DNA from: Panopea generosa | Lineage: Eukaryota > Mollusca > Bivalvia > Adapedonta > Hiatellidae | Length of the DNA stretch: 64,000 nucleotides | Assembly: GCA_029582155.1 (NCBI GenBank) | Contig: CM055899.1 | Coordinates: 55,199,853-55,263,852, forward strand | Reading direction: 5' to 3' | Shown here: piece by piece, positions 5,340 to 63,853 of the stretch | Layout of the letters: the number at the start of each line of letters is the position of its first letter | How positions within the stretch are numbered: position 1 is the first letter of the stretch | Notes under the pieces: model-generated | What the model was told of the DNA's origin: nothing | Database searches by the model: none | The model's input: only the letters and a program-made list of their open reading frames with translations | Position numbers and translations under genes: made by a program

Positions 5340-5990
5340 TAAACCATCAAGATAAATACAAATATGTTTATACTTAGTTCTAACTCCGGAACAATACTTC
5401 GCACTGCTAAAATCAGTGAATCAATGTGCTATGCTCATCACACTGGTCTATTGTATGGTGATTGGAAAATTGCATTGCCATGTGTAACTTAATACGTACT
5501 TTCCTATGACTGTGTCCTGTCTTTAACAGCAATTGCATATTACAATTTCAATATAACCTTGCAGTTTATTATCACAAAATATCAACATGTTATGCACAAC
5601 ACCATTGTCCGTAGCTTAAAGTTTAAGGTCACACAACTCCAAAAGGAAATATATTGCAAATGAGTTTCGCCAAAACAACATATATTTAGTATTGAAATTG
5701 TTTTATATATATTTTTATATGACACGGTACTGTTTTACGATTTAATTGAATTTACTTTTCAGAATTGAGGTTAAAAAAGTTTAAGGGTAAGACTTGTTTT
5801 GTATTTACATAAACATCACGTGATCGAAATTGGGGTAGCTACGTTGAATTGAAATTGTATCATTAAATATGGAGATTGGTGTACTAAACACATATTTTAG
5901 TGCATCAAGCATGTGTCAGTTGTATATACAGTACGGTATTGTGGATCTGGAATTAACGACAATACATTAAATTTAATAATAACAACATAT
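5340..5990 (+). repeat. Diverged microexon-type unit, copy 1
   Basis: This stretch is homologous to the repeat units of the 28-39 kb array: it has the CAGTTTATTACCACAAAAT block, the CATTGTCCGTAGCTTAA block, the GACACGGTACTG..ACGATT block, and after the exon position GTAAGACTTGTTTTGTAT. At 5763-5786 an AG/GT-bordered segment of 24 nt stands where the array units have 21 nt. It is open in the same phase-1 frame, with codons reading LRLKKFK. Confidence 0.7.
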
Positions 5991-13335: not shown

Positions 13336-13884
13336 TAAATTTGCAATCTCTTGCAGTTTCGATGTATACAGATGTACACAAATTAGCATATTTCATATAA
13401 AAGTACATGTTCATGTGGTACATTGTTTCTTTTTTGTGCTTAATCATTAAATCACTGAGATGGTCAATGATAACAAACTGTGTGCACATTGTTATATATG
13501 GTTTACTTGTTTTTCTCATTTGAATATGTTGACATGTTTTTTGTGTGAAATTGAACCTTGGGATTGCTCGTGAGCTCTATAACAATGACAATGAACTGTT
13601 GGCTGTATTGAAAATAAATATTTAAAAAATAAAAGCCAATTGTGGTCGGATTGAGTAACAATTTGGGGTTGAAGAATTGTCGATAATACGTTCGTATGTT
13701 TGTCAGCCCAATCGTCAATCTTCAATGAAGAGAGCAAGAATGCGATCAAACGGGAAAATATAACACAATCATCTTCATGTATTGTACACATCTGTAATAA
13801 AGTATAAGAGTCGTGATTTTCGTTTAATGTTACCAGTACGTATCTGAGCTTGTAAGAAACGATCTACACTGATATAACAATTTG

Positions 13885-14740: not shown

Positions 14741-14742
14741 CT

Positions 14743-14746
14743 TGCC

Positions 14747-14820
<74 letters not shown>
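14743..14820 (+). repeat. (CTGT)n microsatellite
   Basis: An almost perfect CTGT array of about 19 units. It produces long artefactual CLSV or TDRQ reading frames on both strands. Confidence 0.97.
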
Positions 14821-14821
<1 letters not shown>

Positions 14822-15339
14822 ATTTATTATTTTCACAATACAAATACATTTTATTATGTTTGATTTAAAATGTATGTATATGCTGTATGTGAAAATGTAA
14901 CCAAACTGGTATCCATAATTATGGTAACTCAAAATTAAAAAAAAATCTGTGCTTGTAAGAAGGACTGCAAAATCAAGAAATATTGGGATCCTTACTGTAT
15001 AGAAATATGTCCAGGTCCATTAATATTGTCGTTAAAAATCATGCGGAAAATCTATCTGAACGTTCTTAGTGTATTTAAATTCATGTTATATATAACAGAA
15101 AATTATGCATTTAATTTGATTGTTCATACGGAAAGTATGCTCCCTGCACCAATATAGCATTCATCGCCAAGTTTGATAATTCTATATAACAAATAATCAA
15201 AGTGTTACAATTTTAATAATATCGTCCTGTTTTTTTTAATATATGAAGTAATGTCGAGCTTTTCGTTTAATGTTAGCAGTACTTATCTGGACTAGTTAGA
15301 AACACAGTGAAAAATATATCAATATTGGAATATTTAGGA

Positions 15340-16105
15340 AGATATTTCAAGGTTTATATATTTTGTCATTCAAACCATCAAGAGATATACAAATAACTCC
15401 GGAAGAATTATCGCACTGCTAAAAGCAGTTAACCAATGTGCTATGTTCATCACATTGGTCTATTTTATGGTGGTTTGAAAATCGCATTGCCATTTGTAAG
15501 TTAATCCGTACTTTCTTATGACTGTGTCCTGTCTTTAACAGTAATTGCATATTGCAATTTCAGTATAACCTTGCAGTTTATTACCACAAAATATAAACAC
15601 CATTATCCGTAGCTTGAAGTTCAATGTCACACAACTCCAAAAAGAAATATATTGCAAATGTTACAGTTTATAACAACAAAATATCAACATGTTATGCACA
15701 ACACCATTATACGTAGCTTAAAGTTCAATGTCACACAACTCCAAAAAGAAATATATTGCATATGCGTTTCGCCAAAACAACATATATTTAGTACTGAAAT
15801 TGTTTTATATATATTTTTATATGACACGGCACTGTTTTACGATTGAATTGCATTTACGTTTTCATAAATGTGGAATGAACAGATTACGGGTAGACTTGTT
15901 TTGTATTTACGTAAACATCACATAATTAGCTGAGCTCGAAATTGGGGAAGTTACGTTGAATTGAAATTGTATCATGAAAGATGGAGATTGGTGTACTCAA
16001 CACATATTTTAGTGCATCAAGCATGTGTCAGTTGTATATACAGTACGCTATTGTGGATCTGGAATAAACGACAATACATTAAATTTAATAATAACAACAT
16101 ATCAG
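15340..16105 (+). repeat. Diverged microexon-type unit, copy 2
   Basis: Duplicate of 5340-5990. Here the exon position has lost its splice signals: the acceptor AG is gone (ACGTTTTCATAAATG) and the donor reads GGGTAGACTTG. An internal partial duplication of the CAGTTTATAACAACAAAATA block is seen at 15575-15770. Confidence 0.7.
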
Positions 16106-20341: not shown

Positions 20342-20344
20342 TAG

Positions 20345-20366
20345 CGGTGCGAAAAAGGTGTGGAGG
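20345..20366 (+). other. Diverged microexon-like segment
   Basis: The position equivalent to the array microexons. An AG acceptor (TTTTCATTAG) and a GTAAGAC donor survive, but the segment is 22 nt, which would break the reading frame. Probably a dead copy. Confidence 0.4.
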
Positions 20367-23300
20367 GTAAGACTTGTTTTCTATTTACATGGACATCACG
20401 TAATGAATTGAATTCGAAATTGGGAAAATCACGTTGAATTGAATTTGTATCATAAAATATGTAGATTGTTGAAGTAAACATGCCGTCAATCATTTAGATA
20501 TTCCACTATGTGTTATTTATGAATATTTTAACATATACATACCATGCCATGGCGGTTCAGGAATAAACGATAATACATTAAATTTGATAATAGCGACTGA
20601 TCACTTTTGAGGTTATGAAAATGGATCAAAAGTCTTGGTCATTTTTTTCCGGTTTTAGAAATTGAATATTTGTGAACTGTTGGACACGGATCAAAAATGT
20701 ATTTTTTTTATGTTGAGAAGTAGGACTCTATCAATATTTAGATCATCGTACGTTAAACCATATTTCAAACACTATTGCATATATCGATTGAATTAATTAC
20801 AAGGAGGTGTGTCTCAATTGCAGTCACTTAATCACGGGAGAAATACCAATATTGCTATTTATGATCTTTCGACCAAGACGGTACTTACTCTCGGTTGTAC
20901 GGTCTTCTACAGATGTATTTTGACTGGATAAGCGACATTGAAGGAAATATATATATGAACATATACGACATTAGTCGAACTCATTAAAAAATGCATTTAA
21001 TGTATTTGCATAGTATATGTAAACGTACACTGCTTTATGATATTTTTCCGTTGTTATTAAACATAAACAAATTATACATGTAACACCTATTTATTATTGT
21101 TTTTCGCATAAACACTTTTTAATAACGATGCAATAGTTTCAGTATATTAGTTACTACATTTTAACGATACGGTATTCGAAGTAAAGCCCCCCGCAGATAA
21201 ATGCACTTACACATATGCAGTACTTAATGTATGCAGTTAAAATGCGATTAATTGTGTTGATTATGACGGTGTTGTTTTTTTTTCAATTCTTTTCCTCAAC
21301 ATCCTTCAACATTTATTCAAGTTCCTAGTATACAGTTATCTTGTATTAAAGAAATGTGTGGGTTTACACTTTTATATTTATATTTAAATAGCAATTTTGA
21401 TTAAGTAAACCGTTGGCAAAATATTTCCTGCTTTTAATCGTCGAAGTATTTGAATTGCAACGAAATACACGAATTTGTTTGAAAAAAAACAACATTACTT
21501 TTCAAATTTACTAAAGACTTAATTGCGTTTGTTTGAGTGCTTAAATGCAGTCCCACTCTTAATCGGATACTTATTTATTTAAATTTGAATGCGAAGAAAG
21601 CTCAGATCGTATATGAACCGATCTATATTCTGCTTCCTAGATATACCCAAGTAATTAGTGTTATTTCAGAGGCATCGTGATAAGCTGGGAATACAACCCG
21701 AATGTTGTTTTATATCTATTCCTAAGAACTAAAATGCAGTACAGTTTTGCATTCACACTTATCTTGTACACGGCAACGAGGCATGAAACGTAATTAACAA
21801 CGGAAGGTGTATATTCTAACACGCATTCAGACTATTAATAAAACTCATTTCTCATGTCGTTTATACGGGAATGTCTTGTTTTGATGAAATAGAACAGACG
21901 GAAACATTTTAAGGTGCTGCATTTAAATGTTATTGAAATGAGCATACTGATCTCGCATACGAGTATCCATGCAAGTTGTAGGTCGCTCAATCAAAATCAT
22001 TTTAATCAACATTTAAGTTTCCTTTATGCTCCTGTAATAGACATATTTTCTACTGTTATACATGTGTAGGGCAAAGGTTTTAAACTCTCCATCTGACTAA
22101 ATTGAACTTTTCATGCCGCAACGTAGTTTTGTAATGAACACGAAACGCTTCAAATGTAGATATCATTATGAAATATTGAGAATGGTGTAGTAAACATAAT
22201 TCAAACATGTGTCAGTTATGAATATTGAAATGTATAGATACCGTGTCATGGCGGTTCAGGAATAAACGACAATGCATTAAATTTAATAATAGCAACTAAT
22301 CAGGCAACTCTTCTGTTTTAATGATGAAGCAAAGTTCATGATATTTTTGTTCTAGTGTTAGCAATTGCGTTGCTTGAATATTTGTGATCTAGTAGACAAG
22401 GCCCAAAATGTTTTTCATGTTGAGAAGTAGGACTCTGTCTATATTGAGATATGTCAATCAGATTTCGAAAAATATTGCATACTGTGAAATCATTAATTTT
22501 CATTATTTTTGGTACAACATTTAACAGGGATTGAACATTTTTATAAACAAATTTTAGAAAAAAATATTTGAATATGAGTTTTTCTATCACGTAACGCTCC
22601 TGCATCTACACACGCAGTAATAAATGTTCTTCGCAACATAATCGAGGGGAGAGGTGTCAATTAGTCGGCACTTTAGTGTTTTGTCAAACTGTTATGAAAA
22701 CACAAATTGGAGAGGACGTATCACAAGTTGAAGATGTACGTAGGTCGAGACAAACGCAAATCCACTCATCAGAAATATGTATACATCGTCGACAAACAGA
22801 AATAAAATTATAATAGTCCAATAGGCTACTTTTTAATGAAAAACTATAAATCTGCATTGTATTTATTCGCACGCTTATTCTCTTTTTAAAAAATAACTAC
22901 TCGAAACAAAGCTGAAAAAAATACGTCATGCTGACGTAGAATTGGTCGTCTACTGTTGTAATGGACATCCAGGTAACGGTCTATTTTAAGCGCTTTCCAC
23001 AGCGATCAAAATAACATATACGCGAGTAAACACACTACCTCTGATAATGACACGCATTGTTTATGTAATCAAACGGTTGGAATATCAAAACAGATACCGT
23101 ATTTTAACTTAATCAGTGCACTAAATTAAAGATTTCAAATTTAAATTTAACTTTCGATACATCTAAAAGATAAATGAGCACACTAAATAGAAACTACTGT
23201 TAACATATAAATCTAGCTTATAAAGGTAAGAATATGTTTAAGTACAGGTAAATGCTATGCAGTTCGGATGTACCAAAATTTTATCCACGACCATTTCGTT

Positions 23301-26049: not shown

Positions 26050-29000
26050 GTAAAACGAACGCTTTTATACAGGTATTATAAAACGCAAAATTTAAATTTA
26101 TGTGATATACATTTTCTATTTTCGTAAAATGAAATGCGTTTCTTTTGCAGTTTCAATGTATATAATATGATATATATTCAGATATTTTCCGTAATGATAT
26201 ACTTGTTCGTGTGAAATTATTGAATAGTATAAAGTGGCTTTAAATATATAGAAAATATCGTTATTTTTTGTAGTACGATTATATTAAATTCTTTCTTCAA
26301 TTTTCAATATTTGCATGCAAAGAAAAATGCAAAATTCTAGCTGCCAATACTGTACATATTGAGCCGGTTAAAATTTCAAAGTGGGCTTACTGGCGGCATG
26401 TTTCAGTTAACCCTTTAAAGATAGAATCACTTGTAGTCATGCGATGTAAATATTTCAATAACAAGGAAAAATTAAAAACAAATTATACGGATCAAACGTT
26501 CATTGATTTACTGTCAGTAATATTTGTCACTGTTTTCAATACTATAGCGGTTATCCTAATGAGATATGAATTCCGGGATTTGGCAATTTAGGGGATGTAA
26601 ATCGTGTCAGGTTCGGATTACTGTTTTCGAGCATCTTTTCTCATTTCAAATCAGGATTTCAATCTATGAATATAATCTTTATTAATCATAGTTTGGTTTT
26701 TAATATTATTTTTATTTTGACAATCTGTCTTCGATTAAAAGAACTAAATAAATGTGATTACATTCAAATATCGGATCATGAGTACGTTAAACTTTCTCTA
26801 TGGGGAGGGCTGTTGGTAATGTTGTTTACATGTTTATCCTGACCAATGTTCACTATATATAAATATAATTGTATAGTTATTATTCACGTAATTGAATGAA
26901 TTATAATAGATACAATAAAATATTATTTTATTAGTTTCATGCAAATTAAACTTTAGTTATCACACACAAATGTATGAAAACAACACGTTAAAAATACAAG
27001 ACCACATACATCGTGATAATTAAACTGTATCGATTACATAAAAATAAACGTTTGGAAAATAATTCGCAACATGAATTAATTTATTATTATGAAATAAGAT
27101 ACATACAAGATTAGCTCCATAATGTGTCTTTTGAATTCATTTATGTGTCTATTATTTGACCACTGTTGAAATATGGAGCTCTTCTCGTTAATAACTGCAT
27201 TCAAAGTGAATAAAAATATTAACAATATAGATAAATAAAGACAAACTGCTAGGATTGTATGTATAATGGACAATTGAAAAACGATATAGTCAAACCAGTT
27301 GGGAAACACTTGGAGATCGGATACGTAAATGTACATTCCTTGTTCTTATAAAAAATATGTTGGTAATACTTCTTAAATTATATTTTAGAAATTCATATAA
27401 TATTCGAGTACGCAAACAGCTTATTACTACAATTCATTTCTCGTATAATTTAAACGGGAATGGAATGATCGTTTTGATGAAACAAACCAGTCGAAAATAA
27501 TTTAAAGTGCGGTCTTGATTATTGTATTGAAATGAGTATACAGATCTCGCATACGTTTATAAGTCTCAATCTTACTAAGAAAACCGTATCTTAAATAATG
27601 TTCTTTTTTTGAGAACATGATTTTGACGTTGACTCGAATGATCGAATTTTTGATGTAACAACATAGTTTTATAAAAGAACAGGAATCACATCAAATAGAT
27701 ATATCACATATTATTTATAGTATAGCACAATCGGTACATGGTATCCTCCAACGTTGTCTCAGTCTTGCATTTATTTCTATTGTTTCATCTGCAAATTCAC
27801 GGTTGATTTAAAGAAATAGTCAATAACACATATGCATCAAACAATTATGAAGACTACGGTAATTATATTATTTTTAATTCTCTATTATTGATGTATTTTG
27901 ATATACATATTGATCAATTAATTAACTATTTACTATTTACCATCAAAAGTGTTCTATATAAAACGATAAATTCTTAGAGATAAGCATTTATTTATGTTTT
28001 CGATTTTTATCCTTATTCTATGGTTGTATTAACCTGTTACCATATAGTATATATAAAGATAAATAAAACTATGATTAAACTATGTTCTAACTTCGGAGGA
28101 ATATTTCACATCACATTGGTCTATCGAATTGTAGTTGGAAAATCGCATTGCCATTTGTATGTTAATCCGCACTTTCCTAAAATCAACATGTAATCAATCC
28201 TTGGAATTGTTTAATAACTGTGTTTCATTGGACACGTTACCGTTTTAGCAAGTTCAGAATCAGTTTTTTATCTGGTGTTAGAATTTGCGTTGCTTGAATA
28301 TATGTGAACTTTAAGACACTGCCTTAAAATGTTTTTGATGTTGAGAAGTAGGTATCTATCAAATTGAATATTGAGATCATCGCAATACTTAACTTATGCA
28401 GTTAAAATGCGATAATCTGAGTGAATTATGATAGCGATGTTGTTTATTTAGTTTTATTTTCCAACTTCCTTTAACATTTATTCAAGTTGATATACGTTTA
28501 TCTTGGATTAAGGAAATGTACAGATTTACACTTTTAAAGTTGCCTCGAGAAATCGAATTTCCGATTTATCAACATACATGTAGTTTTATAAAAGAACAGG
28601 AAACACTTCAAATAGATATATCACATATTTTTGATAGTATAGCACAATCGGTACATGACCTTCCCCACCTTTGTCTCAGCCATGCATTTATTTCCATTGT
28701 TCCATCTGCAAATTCACGGTTGATTTAAAAAAAATTGTCAATAAAACATAAAGTTGTGCATCAAACAACTATTACGACTACGGTAATTACATTATTTTTA
28801 ATTCTTTATTATAAATGTATTTGATATACATATTGATCAATTAGTTAACTATTTACTATTTACCATAAAAGTGTTCTATAAAAAACGATAAAGTCTCTTT
28901 TATTCTTTTTCTATGATTTTATGTTAATCTGCGCTTTTATATGACCTTGTCCTGTCTTTAACAGCTATTTGCATGTTACAATTTCAATATAACCTTACAG

Positions 29001-29206
29001 TTTATTACCACAAAATAACAACATTTAATGCACATCAACATTGTCCGTAGCTTAATTTTCAAAGTCACACAACTTCCAAAAGAAATATATTGCATATGTA
29101 ATTAGTCAAAATCAACATATAATCAATCTTTGAAATTGTTTAATAACTGTGTTTTTTTGGACACGATACCTTTTTATGATTGAATTGAATTGTCTTTACT
29201 TTTCAG

Positions 29207-29227
29207 AAAAATTGGAAGCTCAGGAAG
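29207..29227 (+). CDS. Heptad microexon 1 (21 nt)
   Basis: Bordered by CTTTACTTTTCAG and GTAAGACTTG. In the phase-1 frame the codons read K L E A Q E, and the preceding exon's G would add E in front. Length is exactly seven codons with symmetric 1-1 phase. Expression is not shown. Confidence 0.55.
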
Positions 29228-30258
29228 GTAAGACTTGTTTTGTATAAATATGGGTATCACATATAATAAATGGTGCAGTAAACATGCTGTACATCTTTGA
29301 GTGCTTCCACCATGTGCTATTTTGAGCATTGGAATGTATAGACACCATGGTATGGCGGGTCAGGAATAATCGACAATACATTTAATTTTATGAATGTAAT
29401 AGCGACTGATCAGGTTAGTTTTGGGTTTTTAATAATGGAGCAAAGTTCAGAATCAGTTTTTTTCTGGTGTTAGAATTTGCGTTGCTTGAATATTTGTGAA
29501 CTTTTAGACACCGCCTAAAATGTTTTCGATGTTGAAAAGTAGGGATTTATTGATATTGAGATCATCGTAAAAAGATTTAGAACAATATTGCATAACCATA
29601 TTGATTGAACAAATAACAAGGTGGAGTGTTGCAGTTATAGCCACTTGATCAAGGGGGGATACCAATATTGCTATTGCTGTTATTGCTAATATGTACACTA
29701 CTGGTGGGCGTTCAAAAACGGAGATTTGTCAATAAAATGTTGTAAGTTGTAAACATTTAGAAAAGTAAATGTTTTAATAATTAATGCATTTCGCATAAAC
29801 AATTTTGAATAACGATGCAATAATTTCAATATATTCGTAAATATAGTTTTAATGAGACTGTATTCGGAGCAAAGTCCCGGCATCAAAACATGCATACACA
29901 AATGCAATACTTAATTGGAAGACTATTTCACATCACATTGGTCTATCAAATTGGAGATGGGAAATCGAATCGCCATTTGTATGTTAATCTGCGCTTTCAT
30001 ATGACCTTGTCCTGTCTTTAACAGCTATTTGCATGTTACAATTTCAATATAACCTTGCAGTTTATTACCACAAAATAACAACATTTAATGCACATCACCA
30101 TTGTCCGTAGCTTAAAAATCAAAGTCACAGAACTCCCAAAAGAAATATGTTGCATATTGAATTCGTCAAAATCAATATGTAATCAATCTTTGAAATTATT
30201 AAACTGTGTTTTATTCGACAGGATACCGTTTTACGATTGAATTGTGTTTACTTTGCAG

Positions 30259-30279
30259 AAATAATGAACGCTGCAGAAG
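30259..30279 (+). CDS. Heptad microexon 2 (21 nt)
   Basis: Bordered by GTTTACTTTGCAG and GTAAGACTTG. Phase-1 codons read I M N A A E. It lies 1,052 bases after microexon 1. Confidence 0.55.
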
Positions 30280-32557
30280 GTAAGACTTGTTTTGTATTAA
30301 CATTGGTTTCCCATATAATAATAAATGGTGTAGTTCACATGCCGTACGTCTTTGAGTGCTTCCATCATGTGCTATTATGAGTAATGAAATGTATAGACAC
30401 CATGGCATGGATGGTTAGGAATAATCGACATTACATTTAATTTAATGATAGCAACTGATCATGTAAATTTTTTTTTTTTTTCAATCAAGATCAGTTTTTT
30501 TCCGGTGTTAGAATTTGTGTTGTTTGAATATATGTGATCTTTTAGACACCGCCGTAAATGTTTTTGATGTTGAGAAGTAGGAATCTATCGATATTGAGAT
30601 CATCGCAATACTTAACTTATGCTGTTAAAATGCAATAATCTGAGTGAATATGACAGCGATGTTGTTTATTTAGTTTTATTTTCCAACTTCCTTTAACATT
30701 TTGTCAAGTTGATATACGTTTAGCTTGGATTAAAGAAATGTACAGATTTACACTTTTATAATGCAATAGCAATTTTGATTAAGTGAACCGTAGTCAAAAA
30801 TATTTCTATGGTTTCTAATCTACAATTAACTTAATTTTAATACTAATTCATGATATTGTTTTTTTCATTAGCATAGAAATAAAAAAAAACATTTAAAGTG
30901 CGGTATTGTTTATTTTATTGAAATCAGTATACAAATCTCGCTTACGAGTCACCGTGCCAACTGTATTTCGTTCAATCAGAATCATTTTAATATATATGTT
31001 GTTATGAGTTTCTCCTCTTTACCTGTTGGACTTAATGGATTTATTTTCTACTGTTACGCATATGTATATGTCACCACCTTCTCCCTTAGCCCTTAATGGG
31101 CTGGATCCGGTAGAACAATTTATAGGGTATTTAGATACATTGAACACATGTCGAATTTCCAATAGTTTTATATCTCTCCAATCATTCCATATATATATTC
31201 AGTGATCTATCATGCATTCTGAAACAAACATTAGAAACAATAAATACCATGATACATACAATAAAACAGTCAATATACAACATGTTCGGTGATGGTGGCT
31301 TACACAACGACAGTTCAATATAACATTTACAAATATCTGATTTACTTGTAATATTAAACAATTCGAATGATTCCAGTTATACAAAACAATATGTTGTTGT
31401 TTATTGGAAAATATAACATAATATAATTACCTGCAGTTATAATCAATATTTCTCACATTTATTGTTATCAACGCACAAAAAATGAATATGTCGTAGTTTA
31501 ACAATGTAAATGTCACAATAATGAGTATGAAATCCGTGCGCTGTTTTAGTTATATTTAAATCATATGCCTAAAGGGAAGTTATGAAAGTACCAAACTAAC
31601 TAAGATACTGTTTTTTACTTAAAGCTACCTACTCTGTATATAACACACTATGACATAGACGCAAAGCAAATGTTTTCGACTCTCAGTTTTACTAAGAAGA
31701 CAGTATCTTGAATTCCATTTTATTTTGAAAAAATGATTTTGACGTTGACTCGAATAATCGAATTTTCGATGTATCAACATAGTTTTATAAAAGAACACGA
31801 AACATTTCAAATAGATATATCACATATTTTTGATAGTATAGCACAATCGGTACATGGCCTCCTCCAACGTTGTCTCAACCATGCATTTATTCTAATTGTC
31901 CCATCTGCAAATTCAAGGTTGATTTAAAGAAATTGTCAATAACACATATGCGTCAGTCAGTTATAACGACTACGATAATTATATAGTTTTAAATTCTCTA
32001 TTATTAAAGTATTTTGATGTACATGTTGATCAATTAGTTAACTATTTACTGTTTACCATAAAAGTGTAAAATAATAAACGATAAAGTCTTAGAGATAAGC
32101 ATTATGTTCTCGCTTTTTTTACTTGTTATATGATTGTATATACCTGTTACCATATAGTATATATGAAGTGAAATAGAACTATGTTTAAACTTAGCTCTAA
32201 CTTCTGAAAAATATTTCACATCACATTGGTCTATCGAATTGTAGTTGAAAAATCGCATCGCCATTTGTATGTTAATCCGCACTTTACTAAGAAATTGTCC
32301 AGTCTTTAACAGCAATTTGCATATTGCAAATTTGATATAACCTTGCAGTTTATTACCACAAAATAACAACATTTTATGCACATCACCATTGTCCGTAGCT
32401 TAATGTTCAAATGTTCAAAGTCACACAACTTCCAAAAGACATAGATTGCATATGTAAATCGTCAAAATCAACATGTAATCAATCTTTGAAATTGTTTAAT
32501 AACTGTGTTTTATTGGACACGATACCTTTTTATGATTGAATTGTATTTACATTTCAG

Positions 32558-32578
32558 AAATGGGAAAAGCTCGGGAAG
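32558..32578 (+). CDS. Heptad microexon 3 (21 nt)
   Basis: Bordered by TATTTACATTTCAG and GTAAGACTTG. Phase-1 codons read M G K A R E. It lies 2,299 bases after microexon 2. Confidence 0.55.
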
Positions 32579-34036
32579 GTAAGACTTGTTTTGTATTAAC
32601 ATGGGTATCACATATACCAAAGGGTGTAGTAAACATGCCGTACATCATTGTGTGCTTCCACCATGTGTTATTATAAGCATTGAAATGTATAGGCACCATG
32701 GCATGGCAGGTCAGGAATAATCGACACTACATTTATGTTAAAACATGTAATAACAACTGATCAGGTTAGTTTTGAGTTTTTAATGATGGAGCAAAGTTCA
32801 GTATCAGTTTTTTCCCGGTGTTAGAATTTGAGTTGCTTGAATATTTGTGAACTTTTAGACACCGCTTATTTAAACTCGAATGCGAAGAAAGCCCAGAAGT
32901 GGGAAATCGAATCCGCAACATGTCGTTGTGTATTTATTCCTAAGTACTAGAATGTAGCGCAGGTTGAAATCATACTTTACTTGTACATGGTAACAAGGCA
33001 TGGAACGGAATTAACAACGGAATGTGCATATTTGAACACACATGTCATTCAGACTATTAATACTATTTTCTTGTCATTTACAAAGAACCTATTGGCACTG
33101 TAAATCAATATAATTGCATTGTTATTATTTATTTAATATCAAATAATATATACAATAAAATATTATTAAATTAGTTTCTTTGATACTGGCATGTGGTATC
33201 TTTTTGGTGAAATAAAACAGACGGAAACAATTTTAAGGGCGGTATTGGAGTTCTATTGAACTGACCATGCATATCCTTCATACGAGACTCCGTCCCAGTT
33301 GTAGCTCGCTCAAAAAACTCATCTTTTAACAAATATTCGAGTTTACTCTCGACTGCTGTGGGCGTTTGGAAATGTAACGATCACATTTACCGCTGTAACA
33401 AATAAAGAGACGCAAGGTAAATGTTTTCAACTTTTCCTTTGACTAAAAAGACAGTATCTTATAATATAATCGCTATATGTTTTCATCGAAAAATTTTCTC
33501 AATCATGCAATTATTTCTAATGTTCCATCCGCAAATTCAATGTTAATTTAAAGAAATGGTCAATATCACATATCCATCTAACAACTACAAACATGCCATA
33601 CATCTTTGTGTGCTTCCAGCATGTGTTATCATTTTAGGTACAACGAAAGGCACGTTTTATTTCGAAAACATTATTTCCATTCGTTTAATTCAGTGCTTTA
33701 CGTTGATATTAATTCGTTTTTACTTGAATGCAAATAAATCTCAGAACATATTGGTCTATCAAATCGGAGTTCGGAAATTGAATAGCAATTTGTAAATTAA
33801 TCTGCATTTTCATATGACCTTGTCCTGTCTTTAACAGCAATTTGCATGTTACAATTTCAATATAACATTGCAGTTTATTACCACAAAATAACAACACTTT
33901 ATGCACATCACCATTGTCCGTAGCTTAAAAATCACATTCGTCAAAATCAACATGCAATCAATCTTTGAAATTGTTTAATAACTGTGTTTTATTGAACACG
34001 ATACCGTTTCACGATTGAATTGGTTTTACTTTGCAG

Positions 34037-34057
34037 AAAAAATGAAAGCTGCAGAAG
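34037..34057 (+). CDS. Heptad microexon 4 (21 nt)
   Basis: Bordered by TTTTACTTTGCAG and GTAAGACTTG. Phase-1 codons read K M K A A E. The sequence is identical to microexon 5. The phase-0 frame meets TGA. Confidence 0.58.
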
Positions 34058-35751
34058 GTAAGACTTGTTTTATATTATCATGAGTTTCCCATATAATAAA
34101 TGGTGTAGTAAACATGCCGTGCGTCTTTGACTGCTTCCACCATGTGCTATTATTAACAATGAAATGTATAGACACCATGTCATGGCGGTTAAAGAATAAT
34201 CGACATTACATTTAATTTAATGATAGCAACTGATCATGTATTTTTTTTTTCAATCAAGATCAGTTTTTATTTCCGGTGTTATAATTTGTGTTGTTTGAAT
34301 ATATGTGAACTTTTAAACACCGCCGTAAATGTTTTTGATGTTGAGAAGTAGGAATCTATCGATATTGAGATCATCGTAATACTTAACTTATACAGATAAA
34401 ATGCGATAATCTGAGTGAATTATGATAGCGATGTTGTTTATTTAGTTTTATTTTCGAACGTCCTTTAACATTTATTCAAGTTGATATACGTTTATCGTGG
34501 ATTAAAGAAATGTACAGATTTACACCTTTATAACGCAATAGCAATTTTGATTAAGAAAACCGTAGTCGAACATATTTCTCTGGTTTCTAATCTACAAAAT
34601 AAATTAGTTGTAATACAAATTGATGATATCTTTTTTATTCATTTGTCTAGAAATAAAACAGTCGAAAACCATATAAAGTGCGGTGTTGTATATTTTATTG
34701 AAATCAGTATACAAATCTCGCTTATGAGTCACCGTGCCAACTGTATTTCGTTCATTAAAAATCATTTTAATATATATGCTATTATGTGTTTCTACTCTTT
34801 ACCTGTTGGACTTCAACGTAATGGATATATTTTCTACTGTAACACTTTCGTAGACGCAAAGCAAGTGTTTTCGACTCTCAGTCTTACTAATAAGACAGTA
34901 TCTAAAATTACATTATTTTTTTTTTTTGAGAACATGATTATGACTTTGACTCGAATAATCTATTTTTCGATGTATCAACATAGATTTATAAAAGAACAGG
35001 AAACACTTAAAATAGATATATAACATATTTTAGAAAGTATAGCACAATCTGTACATGGCCTCCTCCACCGTTGTCTCAGCCATGCATTTATTTCCACTGT
35101 TCCATCTGCAAATTCACGATTGATTTAAAGAAATTGTCAATAGCACATCTGCATCAAACAATTATAAAGATTACGGTTATTATAAAGTTTTTAATTCTCT
35201 ATTATTAATGTTTTTTGATATACATATTGATCAATTTGTTAACTATTTACTGTTTACCATAGAAGTGTTTATATAAAACGATAAAGTCTTAGAGTTCAGC
35301 GTTATTGTTTTTGCTCTTATTCTTTTTCTATGATTTTATATACCTGTTACCATATAGTATATATAAAGACAAATAAAACTATGTTGAAACATTGTTCTAA
35401 CTTTGGAGGAATATTTCACATCACATTGGTTTATCGAATTGTAGTTGGGAAATCGCATCGCCATTTGTATGTTAATCTGCGCTTTCATATGACCTTGTCT
35501 TGTCTTTAACAGCTATTTGCATGTTACAATTTCAATATAACTTTGCAGTTTTTTACAACAAAATAACAACATTTTATGCACATCACTATTGTCCGTAGCT
35601 TAAAATTCAAAGTCACACAACTACCAAAAAAAAAAATATGTTGCATATTTAATTTATCAAAATCAACAAGTAATCAATCTTTGAAATTGTTTAATAACTG
35701 TGATTAATTGGACACGATACCGTTTACGATTGAATTGTGTTTACTTTGCAG

Positions 35752-35772
35752 AAAAAATGAAAGCTGCAGAAG
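35752..35772 (+). CDS. Heptad microexon 5 (21 nt)
   Basis: Bordered by GTTTACTTTGCAG and GTAAGACTTG. Phase-1 codons read K M K A A E, as in microexon 4, which lies 1,715 bases upstream. Confidence 0.58.
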
Positions 35773-37450
35773 GTAAGACTTGTTTTGTATTAACATGGGT
35801 TTCCCATATAATAAATGGTGTAGTTAACATGCCGTGCATCTTTGAGTGCTTCCATCATGTGCTATTATGAGCATTGAAATGTATAGACACCATGTCATGG
35901 CGGTTAAAGAATAATCGACATTATATTTAATTTAATGATAGCAACTGATCATGGAAAAAAAATTTTCCAATGAAGATCAGTTTGTTTCCGGTGTTAGAAT
36001 TTGTGTTGTTTAAATATATGTGAACTATTAGACACCGCCGTAAATGTTTTTGATGTTGAGAAGTAGGAATCTATCGATATTGAGATCATCGTAATACTTA
36101 ACTTATGCTGTTAAAATGCGATAATCTGAGTGAATTATGATAGCGATGTTATTTATTTAGTTTTATTTTCCAACGACCTTAGACAATTATTCAAGTTGAT
36201 ATACGTTTATCTTGGATTAAGGAAATGTACAGATTTACACTTTTATAATGCAATAGCAATTTTGATTAAGTAAACCGTAGTCGAACATATTTCGCTGGTT
36301 TCTAATCTACAAAATAAATTAGTTGTAATATTAATTCATGATTTTTTTTATTTTCCTAGAAATAAAACAGTCGAAAACCATTTAAAGTGCGGTATTGTAT
36401 ATTTTATTGAAATCAGTATACAATTCTCGCTTACGAGTCACCGTGCCATCTGTATTTTGTTCAATCAAAATCATTTTAATATAAAAGTTATTATGGGTTT
36501 CTCCTCTTTACCTGTTGGACTTCAACTTAATAGATATATTTTCTACTGTAACACTTTTGTAGACGCAAAGCAAGTGTTTTCGACTCTCAGTCTTACTAAT
36601 AAGACAGTATCTGAAATTACATTATATTTTTGAGAACATGATTTTGACGTTGACTCGAGTAATCTAATGTTCGATATATAAACATCTACTTATAAAAGAA
36701 CAGGAAACACTTCAAATAGATATATCATATATTTTTTTTAGTATAGCACAATCTGTACATGGCCTCCTCGACCGTTGACTCAGCATGCATTTATTTCCAT
36801 TGTTCCATCTGCAAATTCACGTTTGATTTAAAGAAATTATCAGTAGCACATCTGCATCAAACAATTATAACGACACCGGTAATTATATAGTTTTTAATTC
36901 TCTATTATTAATGTATTTTGATATACATATTGATCAATTCGTTAACTATTTACTGTTTACCATTAAAGTTTTATATAAAACGATAAAATCTTAGAGATAA
37001 GTGTCATTGTTTTCGCTTTTATTCTTTTTCTATGATTTTATATACCTGTTACCATAAAGTATATATAAAGAGAAATAAAACTATGTTTAAACTTAGTTCT
37101 AACTTCGAAGGAATATTTCACATCACATTGGTCTATCAAATTGGAGTTGGCAAATCGAATCGCCATTTGTATGCTATCTGCGCTTTCATATGACCTTGTC
37201 TTGTCTTTAAAAGCTATTTGCATGTTACAATTTCAATATAACCTTGCAGTTTATTACCACAAAATAACAACATTTAATGCACATCACCATTGTCCGTAGC
37301 TTAAAAATCAAAGTCACACAACTACCAAAAGAAATATGTTGCATATTTAATTCGTCAAAATCAACAAGTAATCAATCTTTGAAATTGTTTAATAACTGTG
37401 TTTTATTGGACACGATACCGTTTTACGATTGAATTGCGTTTACTTCGCAG

Positions 37451-37471
37451 AAAAATTGAAAGCTACGCAAG
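37451..37471 (+). CDS. Heptad microexon 6 (21 nt)
   Basis: Bordered by GTTTACTTCGCAG and GTAAGACTTG. Phase-1 codons read K L K A T Q. Confidence 0.55.
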
Positions 37472-38807
37472 GTAAGACTTGTGTATTACTATGGGTTTCC
37501 CATATAATAAATGAGGTAGTTAACATGCCGTACGTCTTTGAGTGCTTCTACCATGTGCTATTATGAGCATTGAAATGTATAGACACCATGTCATGGCGGC
37601 TAAAGAATAATCGACATTACATTTAATTAAATGATAGCAACTGAACATGTAAATTTTGTTTGTGCAATAATGATCAGTTTTTTTCCGGTGTCAGAATTTG
37701 TGTTGCTTGAATATATATGAACGTTAAGACACTTCCTCAAAATGTTTTTGATGTTGAGAAGTAGAAATCTATCGATATTGAGAACATCGTAATACTTAAC
37801 TTATGAAGTTAGAATGCGATAATCTGAGTGAATTATGATAGCGATGTTGTTTATGTAGTTTTATTTTCCAACGCCCTTTGACATTTATTCAAGTTGATAT
37901 ACGTTTATCTTGGGTTAAAGAAATGTACTTATTTACACTTTTATAAAATTAAATGCAATAGCAATTTTGATTACCATAATTTTTTGAGAAAATGATTTTG
38001 ACGTTGACTCGAATAATCGAATTTTCGATGTAACAACATAGATTTATAAAGGAACAGGAAACACTTCAAATAGATATATCACATATTTTTGATAGCATAG
38101 TAAAATCGGTACATGGCCTCCTCCACCAATGTCTCAGCCATGCATTTATTTCCATTGTTCCATCTGTAATTTCACGGTTGGTTTAAAGAAATTGTCAAAA
38201 GCACATCTGCGTCAAACAATTATAACGACTACGGTAATTATATAGGTTTTAATTATCTATTATTAATGTATTTTGATATACATATTGATCAATTTGTTAA
38301 TTATTTACTATTTACCATCAATGTGTTCTATATAAAACGATAAAGTCTTAGAGATAAGCATTATGTTTTCGCTTTTATCTTTATTCTATGATTGTATATA
38401 CCTGTTACCATATAGTATATATAAAGACAAATAAAACTATGTTTAATCTTAATTCTAACTTCGGAGGAATATTTCACATCACATTGGTCTATCAAATTGT
38501 AGTTGGGAAATCGCTTCGCCATTTGTATGTTAATCTGCGTTTTCCAATGACCTTGTCCTGTCTTTAACAGCTTTAAGTATGTTAAAATTTCAATTGAACT
38601 TTGCAGTTTATGACCACAAAATAACATCATTTTATGCACATTACCATTGTCCGTAGCTTAAAAATCAAAGTCACACAATTACCAAAAGAAATATGTTGTA
38701 TATGTAATTCGTCAAAATCAACAAGTCATCAATCTTTGAAATTTTTTAATAACTGTGTTTTATTGGACACGATACCGTTTTACGATTGAATTGTATTTAC
38801 TTTGCAG

Positions 38808-38828
38808 AAAAAAATAAAGCTGCGATAG
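38808..38828 (+). CDS. Heptad microexon 7 (21 nt)
   Basis: Bordered by ATTTACTTTGCAG and GTAAGACTTG. Phase-1 codons read K N K A A I; the other two frames contain stops (TAA, TAG). It is the last microexon before the ROCO exon at 41184. Its final G plus the GC opening that exon would make a glycine codon. Confidence 0.55.
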   Translation, partial: KKIKLR

Positions 38829-39689
38829 GTAAGACTTGTTTTGTATCAACATGGGTTTCACATATAATTAATGGTGTAGTAAACATGCCGTATGTCTTTG
38901 GGTGCTTCTACCATGTGCTATTATGAGCATTGAAATGTATAGACACCATGTCATGGCGGTTCAAGAATAATGGACATTACATTTAAATCAATGATAGCAA
39001 CTGATCATGTAATTTTTTATTGTGCAATAAAGATCAGTTTTTTTCCGGTGTTAAAATTTGTTTTGCTCGAATATATGTGAACTTTAAGACACCGCCTCAA
39101 AATGTTTTTGATGTTGAGAAGTAGAAATCTATCGATATTGAAATCATCGTAATACTTAACTTATGCAGTTAAAATGCGATAATCTGAGTGAATTATGATA
39201 GCGATGTTGTTTATTTAGTTTTATTTTCCAACGCCCTTTGATATTTATTCAAATTGATATACGCTTATCTTGGATTAAAGAAATGTACAGATTTACACTT
39301 TTATAATGCAATAGCAATTTTGATGAGGTCAGCCGTAGTCGAAAATATTTCGCTGGTTTCTAATCTACAAAAAAAATTAGTTGTATTACTAACTGATGAA
39401 TTTTCATTTGTCTAGAAATAAAACAATCGAAAACCATTAAAAATGCGGCATTGTTTATTTTATTGAAAGCAGTATACAAATCTCGTTTACGAGTCACCGT
39501 GCCAACTGTATTTTGTTCAATCAAAATCATTTTAATATATATGTTATTATGAGTTTCTCCTCTTTACTTGTTGGACATAACTTAATGGATGTATTTTCTA
39601 CTGTAACACATATGTAGACGCAAAGCAAGTATTTTCGACGCTCAGTCTTACTAAAAAGACAGTATCCTAAATACCATTATTTTTTGAGA

Positions 39690-39965
39690 AAAATATGACA
39701 AATCATTGTTGCCAATCACAATAGTTGGCAATCTGATAAAATGCGTCAGTTGAACAAACTAAATATCGGTCGAATATCGCATAACACGGTCGAAACCTGG
39801 GAGCGAGTATCGTCTCGGTTGAAAACATCTTGGTACATCCACTGTGTTTATGGAAGGCCAATGAATGTTTTCTACAGCACTAGGGTTCATACCAATCGAT
39901 CGTACAGACACGGTCTGTCAATCAAACAAGTCGATCAACCAACAAGCGGTTGCTATTGGTAGATA
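39690..39965 (+). other. Unassigned open segment ending the array
   Basis: The last array unit is cut at about 39690 by sequence with a less AT-biased composition. An open frame from 39741 to 39962 (73 residues) shows no motif I recognise. It could be an upstream exon, part of an insertion, or chance. Confidence 0.3.
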
Positions 39966-41183: not shown

Positions 41184-41450
41184 GCCGCTTTCTACCAAAA
41201 GAAATACAACGTATGAATGCGAAGTCTATTGACATATATAAGCAAGCACTTACTGAGGGAAAAGAAAAAGTTCACAACATCCGGGTCATGGTTGTCGGAC
41301 ATTTCAATGTAGGAAAGACGTCACTAACAAAACGAATGCTAGGGGAATCTGTTGATATCAATTCCGAGGAGAGCACAAATGGCATACAAATGTATATGAA
41401 AAAATGTAAGGTTTCTATACAGGATGGAATGTGGACCAAGTTAACAAAAG
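41184..41450 (+). CDS. ROCO exon A: Roc domain P-loop
   Basis: Begins after TTTTTCATTAAG in phase 1 and reads RFLPKEIQRMN, then a helix (DIYKQALTEGKEKVHNIR) and MVVGHFNVGKTSLTKRMLGE. GHFNVGKT is an intact Walker A motif for phosphate binding. The exon ends KKCKVSIQDGMWTKLTK in phase 1 before GTATTG. An ATG at 41213 could serve as a start, but the frame is open upstream to the splice acceptor, so it is more likely internal. Confidence 0.88.
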
Positions 41451-44235: not shown

Positions 44236-44430
44236 ATGAAATAACAAATGAAACCTCCAAGCGTCTCGTTGATTCGTTGAGTAATTACAAACAAAGCAAA
44301 GATACAGATGTTATTGAGCCCTTTACTAATAGTTCGTATAAAACTGATGCAGCTACATCTTCAACTTTGGAATCCTCAGAAGTTATTTATACAAGAGAAC
44401 GACCAGACGAAAATATCGTGTGCGATGATG
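44236..44430 (+). CDS. ROCO exon B: insert in Roc
   Basis: 195 nt, phase 1-1, between ACATTTCAG and GTATATTT. Reads DEITNETSKRLVDSLSNYK and continues as a serine/threonine- and acid-rich stretch ending ENIVCDD. It lies between the P-loop and switch-II exons, so it is a low-complexity insert in Roc; the whole exon is open. Exon assignment rests on phase and open frame rather than a conserved motif. Confidence 0.65.
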
Positions 44431-45294: not shown

Positions 45295-45372
45295 AAGAAG
45301 AGCGTGTTGTCAAACCGTCAGAAGATGTCGATTCTGACAAACTACAAACCCTTTTGGAAGATATCGAGGTTG
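45295..45372 (+). CDS. ROCO exon C: short acidic exon
   Basis: 78 nt, phase 1-1, between ACTCTTATAG and GTAGGACA. Reads EEERVVKPSEDVDSDKLQTL then LEDIEV. It follows exon B in phase. It carries no domain motif; the call depends on frame and splice sites. Confidence 0.6.
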
Positions 45373-47481: not shown

Positions 47482-47701
47482 ATGACTCAGAAAAAGACAT
47501 GTGGAAATGAACACCATTTTGCTAACCTGTCTATGTGGGATTTCGCTGGACAATATGTGTTCTACGCCACCCACCAGGTGTTCTTATCACCAAGAGCTGT
47601 GTATCTTCTTGTCACCGATATGTCCAAACACATTGATGATGTTGTGATAGGAGACGACAGTTATTTTAACACCAGTGGTTCGGACAAATGTAAAATATCT
47701 G
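47482..47701 (+). CDS. ROCO exon D: Roc switch II
   Basis: Reads LSMWDFAGQYVFYATHQVFL, in which DFAG is the DxxG switch-II motif and WDFAGQ is a ROCO hallmark. It continues AVYLLVTDMSKHIDD and SDKCKIS and ends in phase 1 before GTAAGCTT. The acceptor TTGTGTTGTAG puts the open frame in phase 0, which does not match exon C; read in phase 1 a TGA appears after nine codons. Confidence 0.85.
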
Positions 47702-48529
47702 GTAAGCTTAACTTGTTTAATAGAAATTGCTACTTGTTAACATTTATTAATAATTCTAGGTCAATAACGAGGCAAATTATACAATAGAATTTCAAACTAG
47801 ATACCGTAGAAAAACGAGATAAGTGGCTTGTAGGAAATATTGAAGTCAATGTCGGGCACAGGACAAATGAAAACTGAACAAATGTTGAATTAAATGAGAC
47901 ACTAATTACATTTCAAACACGAATATTGGAAATGGCATGTTTACCGTAGTAATTATTATTATTATACGTGACATGTATGCGAAATCATTAATGCCTATAT
48001 TTCAATATTATTATACTGTAAATTACTACTTTAAATGACATATGTAATACCAAACAATAGACCTTAATTTATACCCGATAATAAAAGTAAAAACAACGAA
48101 GAATACAGTTTACGTATAATAATACATAACAAAATCCATAACACTATATCTTTCAGCTATGAAATAACATGTTTAAACATTTTAAAATATTCGGATGGAA
48201 TTTTTAAAACTAATTATCGTTCAAAACAGTATCAATCGTTATTACACGACTTCTCACTGCATATATCCGACATTCGTAAAACTGGGAAGGGGCATTAAGT
48301 GTTACCCCTGTCCTGTTCGTTTGAGTTCGATTTTAGTTAGTTGGTTAATGTGTTAATGCTATAATTTCGATATATCTATGTCCATGTTGTATTCGAGATA
48401 TTTTTTTGTTAATTTACGACAAGCCTAAGAAAATTCATTAAACTAACAAGGCTAGGATCTGTTTGGATCCTGTATTTTCACATTAGAAATATATGGGTTA
48501 CCACTGGGAATTTGGAGATAAGGAGGAAT

Positions 48530-52255: not shown

Positions 52256-52510
52256 AACGCACAAGGCGAGATGTCTGAAATGTACTTCGACGCTTTGAGA
52301 AATTTCTTATCAAAAAGTGTCACTCTGAGTCATTTGGCAGATGAAGAGTTTGCTGTGAACAATACTATTGCAGATGATCCTGCTATAGATGGACTGAAGA
52401 AGAAGATACTCGAAGTCGCATCGCAACAGGAATACTGGGGCGAATGGATACCCGTCAAGTGGATAACACTTGAAAGGGCGTTAGACGAACCTAGAGATCG
52501 AAGTATTAAG
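52256..52510 (+). CDS. ROCO exon E: Roc-COR linker
   Basis: 255 nt, phase 0-0, between TTGTATTACAG and GTAATTTT. Reads EMSEMYFDALRNFLSK, then AVNNTIADDPAIDGLKKKIL and WGEWIPVKWITLERAL. The N(T)xADDP..L...I...A..Q.YWGE.IP.+W..LE pattern is the start of COR in Death-domain ROCO proteins. The preceding exon in frame is not found. Confidence 0.88.
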
Positions 52511-53190
52511 GTAATTTTTGGCATTGGATATGTTTTTTATCAAAATTTACAAGAGCTGTAACAAAGACGGCAGCGCTCTAGATCATTCTAAATACTCAAA
52601 ATAAAGAATATAAAGCAGTCAATAACTGAAAAAAAAAGTTTTTGAGCGCCAGATGGAAACATATCTTCATATTTAAAAAGAGCATAGCTCATGTTACCTT
52701 AAAACTAAAAGAGCAAGGTAGACTATTTACGTCTGTAGCAAGCATTATACAGATGTTAGGAATAAAAACGCTTCAGAAAATTAATATAGGGAACTTAAGC
52801 TATTGATTAAAATGTATTTATGGAGTGAAACAATATTTTCATTATTTAGTAGTCAACTTCAATCTTTTAACCCAAAACAAATCTCAAAAGTTTTATATTT
52901 GAAACCTATACACACACTTTCAATCAACAGCATTAAAGGAAATTAAAGTTATTGAACCGTTTATTTCTTTTTAATAAAATTTGACTATGACACAATTAGC
53001 CTCAAAGCAAACTCGAGCTTCTCTTCTTCGGTAGGAAGCTATACACAAAATGCAATCAATATATTATGAAGGAAACTTATGCTATTAAGCGGAAATATTT
53101 GTTTCTGTTTTTAAAATAGTTTATGCTTACTTATTTTACTTCGATTGTGAAACAAGTTCTTACAACTTAGGCGAATCACGGTCGAAGATT

Positions 53191-53291
53191 TACTGGTTAG
53201 AACCAGTACTAAGCATATGCGGAAAAGTGTCTTGCTCAAGGACACCACACATACATGTAGCCGTGGCAAAGGTTCGAACCCACGATGCTCC
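53191..53291 (-). mobile_element. tRNA-derived SINE fragment
   Basis: On the minus strand it has a box B-like GGGTTCGAACC, then GTGTCCTTGAGCAAGACACT, the body of a SINE also seen at 59441 and 60036. The head with box A is degenerate. Confidence 0.6.
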
Positions 53292-53977: not shown

Positions 53978-54099
53978 GTCATCGAGATTGCTGACATTGA
54001 ATCTATAAACTCAAGTTTGCCAGTTCCATTGACGATGCCTGAAGAACTGCAGGTCTTCCTCCGATTACAACATGATTTGGGCACCATTGTGTACTTCAG
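53978..54099 (+). CDS. ROCO exon F: COR
   Basis: 122 nt, starts in phase 0 after CAATGATAG and ends in phase 2 before GTATGTAA. Reads VIEIADIESINSSLPVPLTM and then LQVFLRLQHDLGTIVYFR, matching the COR segment before the FL..H..G.I.YF motif. Confidence 0.85.
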
Positions 54100-55036: not shown

Positions 55037-55063
55037 AGCATTTCTATCTTTCTCTCTCTTTTT

Positions 55064-56261: not shown

Positions 56262-56419
56262 TGACGAAGGTCTAAACATGCACGTCTTACTTGATCCCCA
56301 ATGGACAATTGACGCTTTTAAGTGTCTTATCACAGCCAAAAGGTTTTGTAAGAAACCAACGATTTTCAAAGATTGGCAGGAATTCAACAGGAAAGGCATT
56401 TTAAAGAAGGATCTTGTTG
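56262..56419 (+). CDS. ROCO exon G: COR
   Basis: 158 nt, phase 2 to phase 1, between TTGAATTTCAG and GTAGGTGA. Reads DEGLNMHVLLDPQWTIDAFK then CLITAKRFC. The LDPQW motif is a COR hallmark. Phase agrees with exons F and H. Confidence 0.9.
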
Positions 56420-58727: not shown

Positions 58728-58855
58728 ACTCTATATGGAAAAACGAAGAGAATGAAAGTTTTTACGAACATCGCCATTACTTGATTAGATTGATGGAGAA
58801 ATTGGACATCATTGCCAAGCCACGTACATTCAATGAAGACATGACTGAAGTTGTG
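58728..58855 (+). CDS. ROCO exon H: COR
   Basis: 128 nt, phase 1 to phase 0, between TTATTTACAG and GTGTGTTT. Reads DSIWKNEENESFYEHRHYLI then LMEKLDIIAKPR, the helix that precedes the large C-terminal COR block. Confidence 0.87.
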
Positions 58856-60292: not shown

Positions 60293-60887
60293 GTTCTCGA
60301 TTACTGCTATGCACCAAGTGTCCTTAAAGAAACGGTACCATCAAAATATCTGACTCCTTCTCAAACAGCCGACGCGAAGTCAACATCCACTCTGTGTTTT
60401 ACTGATTCCACTGGATTTCTACATCCCTCAATATACCACCGACTAATGGCCGCTTGCCTCACGAAGTGGTCAATATCAACACAGAATGATAAACATCTAA
60501 TATTCTGTGGGTGTGGAGTATCTGACATCAACAAAACTCACCGAGTAACCATATACTTCCTGGAAAATGTCATCCAGATATGGGTTACGAAATATGGTCG
60601 AATAACAACAGATCCAGACGTGTCAGTGTGTGAAGAGGTAAGGCAGTTTATGGAACAGACGTTACAGCGGATAACGCAACACTTGGGTCAAAGTAGCAAG
60701 ATTGAAACATCTGTCAAATGCCCGCGTGTTACAGGAGTAAGAAGTGGATTGCTACCGTTGAGTGAGTTCTTGACGAATGGCGAGTGTCCATGCAGTTCGC
60801 ACGACGAAATGCATGTTCTGATGTTTTCAGAGATGTTATTGGTCTGGGCTTACAGTAGAGATGACTCTGGTGCAACTGGACAGAAAG
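60293..60887 (+). CDS. ROCO exon I: COR C-terminal half
   Basis: 595 nt, phase 0 to phase 1, between ATACATTGTAG and GTACTATA. Reads VLDYCYAPSVLKETVP at the start (the Y..PS.L motif of COR). It then gives FTDSTGFLHPSIYHRLMAAC, a strand-rich stretch (KHLIFCGCGVSDINKTHRVT), and a C-terminal helix with EEVRQFMEQTLQRITQHL. It ends with CSSHDEMHVLMFSEMLLVWA. This is the dimerisation and second lobe of COR. Codon use looks less AT-biased than the introns, supporting a real coding exon. Confidence 0.9.
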
Positions 60888-63557: not shown

Positions 63558-63853
63558 ATAGTTCTGTCCTCTCTGATCAAACACTTGATAGGGTCCCAAA
63601 GGAAAAGGAATTAAACACAATAGCAAATAGGATTGGAAACAAATGGAAGCAGCTGACATTAGAGTTGGGATTGTCGCAAGCGGATTTTGAACAGGCTCAG
63701 GCGAACCATCCTCACAGCGTAGTGGATCTGGGCATCACTGTTCTGATAAAGTGGGCGAGAAAGAGTGTGACAACTGCGACATTTAGGAAACTGGAAAGTG
63801 CCTTGAAGCAGACGGATATATGCACAATTGACGTGTTTAAAGGTATTAGGTGA
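63558..63853 (+). CDS. ROCO exon J: Death domain
   Basis: Starts in phase 1 after CTTTATTTCAG. After a short linker it reads ELNTIANRIGNKWKQLTLEL, then GLSQADFEQAQANHPHSVVD and ITVLIKWARKSVTTATFRKL, a complete six-helix Death domain of about 80 residues (W at helix 2, L..LG, HP.S, L..W). Death domains pair with other Death domains in apoptosis and NF-kB adaptors. A TGA closes the frame at 63853, but a strong donor-like AG/GTGAGG overlaps it, so the gene may continue past the window. Confidence 0.88.

Follow-up and report, generated by a model that had tools for sequence, protein, structure and literature searches.

The window analysed here is a stretch of 64,000 nucleotides (nt) from the bivalve Panopea generosa (contig CM055899.1 of assembly GCA_029582155.1, C6:55199853-55263852). 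It contains a tandem array of repeat units, each bearing one 21-nt microexon, and, further downstream, a gene of the ROCO family with a Roc-COR-Death arrangement; the coordinates of all features are collected in Table 1. Searches cover the 1.47-Gb genome. Judged from the DNA, the microexons are quite probably real, spliced and hypervariable coding exons of a tandemly expanded bivalve ROCO-Death family, in which they would encode a heptad repeat situated before the Roc domain.

A preliminary description of the window had placed seven units in the array, each with an acceptor ending in CAG, exactly 21 nt and a common donor, all open in the same phase-1 frame. All seven are found at that place as CAG, 21 nt and GTAAGACTTG, a pattern with 0 matches in 100 shuffles of the window, and the direct-repeat array holds these seven with exon-to-exon distances of 1052-2299 nt. 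Stops occur in none of the seven in phase 1, in five in phase 0 and in one in phase 2. The 12 nt AGGTAAGACTTG, comprising the last two exon bases and the donor, are identical in 7/7 window units. Simultaneously, the 21-nt cores show a difference of 26.8% when all pairs are counted, whereas almost every 20-column stretch of the flanking intron shows 4-18%; one flank stretch reaches 30% and corresponds to a badly aligning poly-T tract. Relative to the flanking intron, the frame is better kept and the splice borders are identical in the window, as had been anticipated, whereas the letters of the exon are less kept than those of the intron.

The ROCO gene is situated on the same strand as the units. 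Its Roc exon begins 2.4 kb past the last unit, and this exon starts in phase 1, matching the end phase of all the units. A Roc GTPase followed by COR, the hallmark of the ROCO family, is recognised by Roc matches above the cut-off on two exons and by a COR-A match on the joined translation, and the Death domain that marks the bivalve ROCO subgroup is recognised by the Death match (1.8e-8) together with tblastn. The Roc exon has 43 genome matches, ten of which, at 94-100% identity, all lie on C6 at 55.07-57.61 Mb; the next-best match after these ten (71%) is on C18. Same-strand units lie upstream of the Roc exon in ten of the ten C6 copies, and no unit is present within 10 kb upstream of the C18 relative. 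Furthermore, CATTAAG precedes the Roc exon, with phase 1 open, in all six copies read. The intact 21-nt units per copy, each allotted to the Roc exon that follows it and dependent on the stretches fetched, number 15, 7, 8, 13, 2, 0, 5, 10 and 6 in nine copies and 2 in the tenth (L033); the copy with none carries a single intact unit of 24 nt, EKQKKAAE. In one copy, a block of two units (EMRTARK, EKWKAPL) recurs three and a half times with a flank divergence of ~1%, which is evidently a recent block amplification.

A length-free genome pattern, with the donor and a stretch of the acceptor fixed and an exon of 12-42 nt allowed, gives 75 matches, of which 74 lie on C6 at 54.94-57.61 Mb and one on C1; read backwards as a control, it gives 7. 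Another genome pattern search gave 54 matches against 1 in its backwards control. With these controls and the window shuffles, a chance origin is rejected. The C6 matches comprise 56 exons of 21 nt, 17 of 24 nt and one of 27 nt, and among their 49 distinct sequences stops are found in none in phase 1, in 28 in phase 0 and in 16 in phase 2. In most cases the 24-nt exons (DRTMIKIS, DGTVVKIG, ELRLKKFK and others) precede the 21-nt exons of the same copy, and the two lengths are intermixed near 56.39-56.40 Mb. The serial, symmetric phase 1-1 microexons with a common open frame extend further than the seven units initially described. A mobile element carrying the motif is an unlikely source, since 74 of the 75 matches lie in one 2.7-Mb stretch with the ten Roc copies alongside, and the inverted matches, 6 of 74, form a single cluster. 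This inverted cluster of six microexons (C6:57171901-57202027) has no close same-strand Roc exon among the 43 matches listed and may represent an incomplete copy of the gene.

When the fetched DNA is scanned with a profile, 88 units are recovered, 10 in the window and 78 in stretches outside it. Hits that did not span a unit were dropped, whereby 109 hits in separate stretches became 80 units in joined stretches and 12 hits became 8 units; the dropped rows include an upstream unit of 24 nt (55728923) that is open in phase 1. The two L033 units stand outside all statistics. Both AG and GT are present in 72 units (66 of 21 nt and 6 of 24 nt), and their conservation in this wider set follows from their use as the rule by which units were selected. 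Stops among the 72 units amount to 0 in phase 1, 43 in phase 0 and 13 in phase 2, whereas the 16 units without AG and/or GT include three of 22, 23 or 25 nt and one with an in-frame stop. The frame is accordingly broken in 0/72 units with intact sites versus 4/16 without, for which the Fisher p of 0.0008 is only a guide, because the units share ancestry by duplication and the counts are not independent. The same counts bear on the possibility that the array is an expanding intronic repeat in or beside a ROCO gene, with the cores as relics that are no longer spliced. The bulk of each unit is noncoding and grows like a long tandem repeat, splice sites are dead in the 16 units mentioned, the donor beyond GT changes in the closest pairs, and the gene copy in the window is possibly broken, all of which would agree with such relics. 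Such an origin is nevertheless quite improbable, given a single frame free of stops among the 49 distinct exons, lengths that are only multiples of three, frame damage confined, among the 88 units, to those that have also lost AG or GT, and a window donor that stays identical next to fast-changing exon letters.

The speed of exon change is measured on 66 intact 21-nt units, grouped into 33 non-overlapping close pairs, with the six intact 24-nt units set aside. The nonsynonymous difference per site (pN) is 0.146, the synonymous difference (pS) 0.090 and the near-flank difference 0.034, which gives a pN/flank of 4.3 (bootstrap over pairs 3.1-6.2); an alternative matching of pairs, with a lower bound on flank distance, gives a pN of 0.158 and a flank of 0.039. 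In the six copies of the Roc exon, pN is 0.035 and pS 0.044. In the nine pairs whose near flank is at most 1% different, 16 of 189 exon bases are changed versus 12 of 1967 in all else; the 11 donor columns of these pairs account for 6/97 and the 14 acceptor columns for 0/126. In one pair (56401165/56419771), five of the 21 exon bases are different, against 0.5% over 1300 nt of flank. Replacements in the 33 pairs are distributed over residues 1-7 as 1, 10, 13, 7, 6, 12 and 12, and the ~101 exon changes have generated no stop where 5.1 are expected. Six pairs with dead splice sites, few as they are, show 6/126 exon changes at a mean near flank of 2.0%. In addition, the units of several pairs resemble each other more closely over the near flank, the 110 nt to each side of the exon, than over 1300 nt of flank (2.1% versus 16.2% difference in 55031712/55071762, for instance), which suggests conversion or constraint beside the exon.

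The variability is unevenly arranged along the repeat. Entropy, computed over 44 distinct 21-nt exons, amounts to 0.16, 1.80, 3.23, 1.44, 0.88, 3.15 and 2.44 bits for residues 1 to 7 in turn; residues 1, 4 and 5 (E, K and A) are mostly constant and residues 2, 3, 6 and 7 variable, with Ala at position 5 in 38 of the 44, mostly K/M at position 2, M/G/L/D at 3 and R/A at 6. On an ideal helix that turns by 100 degrees per residue, residues 1, 4 and 5 would point to 100, 40 and 140 degrees and residues 2, 3, 6 and 7 to 200, 300, 240 and 340, hence to opposite sides. A helical chain is suggested by the E/K/A content; the two-sided residue pattern is itself a property of the sequence. The preliminary description had instead seen M/L and A at a/d-like spacing, which the residue composition does not bear out: the 44 exons contain no consistently hydrophobic pair of positions, only the Ala at 5, whereas each heptad of a coiled coil should carry a hydrophobic a and d. 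A classical parallel coiled coil, its length tuned by exon skipping, would suit the exact heptad length, the E/K/A-rich residues, the frequent Ala at 5 and the symmetric phase; it is rather doubtful when the candidate core position 3 is among the most variable, an a/d pair is wanting and the heptad register would break at the 24-nt exons. Of the proposal that unit copy number sets the length of a coil, the numerical part survives, since heptad number differs between gene copies, but no classical a/d core is seen.

Several observations weigh against the microexons being spliced, helical and diversified by selection. The pN/pS of 1.6 has an interval (1.0-3.1) that touches 1, and pS/flank is 2.7 (1.4-4.4), so that synonymous sites, too, lie above the near flank; in well-aligned pairs over 1300 nt, the exon differs by 12.9% and the flank by 5.3%, a smaller excess. 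Part of the exon excess may stem from a local bias in mutation or from constraint on the near flank, and because the synonymous sites are also raised, selection is not claimed for the whole of it. A stronger version, in which the microexons are used and their fast change is wholly a matter of local mutation or conversion bias and not of selection for new residues, draws on the same pS and on the lower bound of pN/pS, and the pair with five exon differences could reflect a single conversion event. It appears unlikely, if far from negligible, in that stops are avoided, the replacements are uneven by residue, and the odd exon of that pair is unique among the scanned units and pattern matches. In the nine closest pairs, the donor beyond GT shows no special conservation. 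Only ~1 indel of a length other than 3n is expected in the close pairs, which makes length conservation weak evidence there; a few of the 75 pattern matches could be due to chance, although their clustering could not; and the shared ancestry of the units tempers the contrast in broken frames. Gly at position 3 in nine of the 44 distinct heptads and Pro in three disfavour a regular helix. Among 537 candidates of ROCO-sized annotated proteins, in a database from which the source species is apparently absent, no heptads are found at E<=10. A sister copy (L016) contains a Roc exon with VILVGTHADKLNK (THADK), a motif that contacts guanine in small GTPases; no such exon is found in the window at 47.7-52.2 kb. 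In a copy lacking this exon, the phase-1 end at 47701 would be joined to the phase-0 start at 52256, resulting in a frame shift downstream, and the ROCO copy in the window may be a broken or otherwise spliced gene, or may contain an assembly gap. The conclusion at the level of the family is independent of the state of this copy.

If the array is spliced and helical, as we infer from its sequence, the upstream 24-nt set (eight residues each) and the downstream 21-nt set (seven residues each), all phase 1-1, would be serially joined onto the phase-1 Roc exon. The protein would thereby obtain a helical repeat directly before the GTPase, with one constant and one hypervariable side, and the repeat length would track the intact units of that copy. 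Units would multiply as blocks, and replacement changes concentrated in the 21 nt would diversify them. The best guess for the function is a variable binding or assembly surface feeding the ROCO-Death switch, as in innate sensing. Proteins of the ROCO GTPase/Death-domain kind are commonly tied to immunity, and the link proposed here would follow from the Death domain, the expansion, the fast change and, by analogy, the proposal made for brown-algal ROCO genes. A cytosolic receptor family with a diversity-generating recognition array, built by block duplication and one-face diversification with any subset spliceable, and convergent with the brown-algal ROCO arrays at units about a third as long, can be put forward only tentatively. 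Should the splicing be as proposed, the locus would present, in ten gene copies, an array in which every exon encodes one repeat of seven residues and replacement sites change about four times as much as the near flanking intron. ROCO switches in both brown algae and bivalves would then have gained modular, fast-evolving N-terminal arrays, and the family would be a candidate variable receptor for bivalve immunity. Such an array may have been missed by gene annotation because its exons are so short.

Table 1. Features of the window, in window positions
Feature	Position	Strand	Match or basis
24-nt (octad) microexon of the upstream class, ELRLKKFK, phase 1, AG and GT intact	5763..5786	+	
Decayed unit, acceptor and donor gone, 23 nt	15866..15888, ends approximate	+	
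Decayed unit, acceptor gone, 25 nt by profile alignment	20343..20367, ends approximate	+	
Tandem array of repeat units bearing 21-nt microexons	27564..39690	+	Direct repeats
Microexon 1, EKLEAQE	29207..29227	+	
Microexon 2, EIMNAAE	30259..30279	+	
Microexon 3, EMGKARE	32558..32578	+	
Microexon 4, EKMKAAE	34037..34057	+	
Microexon 5, EKMKAAE	35752..35772	+	
Microexon 6, EKLKATQ	37451..37471	+	
Microexon 7, EKNKAAI	38808..38828	+	
Roc exon with P-loop VVGHFNVGKTSL, phase 1 at both ends	41184..41450	+	Roc 1.6e-6, 28.8 bits, cut-off 27
Insert exon within Roc, acidic/polar, phase 1	44236..44430	+	
Second insert exon within Roc; putative donor GTTGGT, chosen by phase	45295..45368	+	
Roc exon with DFAGQ	47482..47701	+	Roc 1.5e-8 on open reading frame 47482-47784
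Exon aligning to homologs between Roc and COR; alone without Pfam family	52256..52510	+	
COR-region exon	53978..54099	+	COR-A 9.4e-17 on joined translation of the 52256-60887 exons
COR-region exon	56262..56419	+	Part of joined COR-A match
COR-region exon	58728..58855	+	Part of joined COR-A match
Exon past COR-A, kept in bivalve homologs; alone without Pfam family	60293..60887	+	
Death-domain exon	63558..63850, 3' end approximate	+	Death 1.8e-8 on open reading frame 63542-63850

Three further units of the window lie upstream of the array. The 24-nt unit at 5763-5786 is older than the seven 21-nt units. Neither it nor the two decayed units figured in the preliminary description, which also did not mention the ROCO-Death gene, its ten-copy family, the 24-nt class or the fast change of the exons. 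In the same upstream region, 51-bp tandem repeats are situated at 1-3230 and 11308-13333, with the block at ~1-900 inverted relative to the others, and a segmental duplication links 2068-8310 and 12012-18358 at 81-97% identity. Inside the duplication are two Myb/SANT-like reading frames, at 6342-6623 (matching Myb_DNA-bind_5) and, as a copy, at 16456-16737; frames of this type are frequent in transposon-derived genes. Within the ROCO gene, the two acidic/polar insert exons, located between the P-loop and DFAGQ, occur in sister copies too, and a 40-bp minisatellite of ~37 copies (56589-58061) is situated between two COR-region exons.

A protein search with the joined window exons gives 34 matches among the best 7995 candidates, and 29 of the 29 with a named organism are bivalve, including Mercenaria, Ruditapes, Sinanodonta, Potamilus, Dreissena and Mactra; the top match has 39% identity over 93%, and the window gene could be aligned to the bivalve homologs exon by exon. 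The Mercenaria ROCO-Death genes LOC123537873 and LOC128553824 share 36-39% identity with the window gene, and the bivalve homologs P0001 and P0003 contain Roc, COR-A and Death as it does. In the homologs, a variable N-terminal part is attached immediately ahead of an xPxEI segment. A Gly before this segment, as in the window, is present in three of the five Mercenaria proteins reaching past the joint and absent in the other two. The N-terminal domains of the homologs vary, being Macro, SH2 or HEPN_DZIP3 (by accession) or none recognised. A genome search for the HEPN_DZIP3 N-terminus, with 150 of 192 candidates scored, gives 126 matches; among those listed, none lies on C6 at 54.9-57.7 Mb. On C12, four of the 126 listed matches precede more distant Roc exons by ~5-57 kb, a hint that in related ROCO genes HEPN_DZIP3 may take the place of the microexons of the C6 group.

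Exon arrays of comparable form are known from other lineages, and there are differences between them and the clam array. The schistosome micro-exon genes (MEGs), which the preliminary description had named as the nearest parallel, possess serial, very short exons, mostly 3n, separated by long introns, as does the clam array; this description is untrue of the Roc-COR-Death part. MEG proteins carry a signal peptide, are secreted and reach 189 residues at the longest (PMC10526429), whereas in the clam near-identical tandem units precede a large GTPase gene. In the case of the aphid bicycle genes, many small same-phase internal exons are combined with fast protein change and a raised dN/dS, a likeness to the clam; the internal exons of these effector candidates are in phase 2, unlike the phase-1 clam exons, and the accessible part of the source mentions neither ROCO nor tandem heptad units (PMC9168663). 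No smaller or similar repeat-per-exon array was found in the literature on microexons, exon arrays and ROCO genes, as far as the excerpts covered extend.

The closest known system, by analogy of structure, is the brown-algal ROCO family with arrays of leucine-rich repeat (LRR) exons, with which the clam family has the logic in common but neither the repeat nor the lineage. Brown-algal ROCO genes with LRR exon arrays were reportedly described by Zambounis et al. 2012. According to Teng et al. 2024 (PMC11378527), each LRR is its own 72-bp phase-2 exon N-terminal to Roc, the variable repeat positions are under diversifying selection and alternative transcripts are annotated. Compared with this LRR system, the clam exons are of 21 or 24 nt, in phase 1, and encode heptads or octads that are not LRRs, in an animal ROCO-Death gene. 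By genomic structure, the clam array, like that of the brown algae, lies upstream of Roc and devotes a separate exon, always of the same phase, to each repeat.

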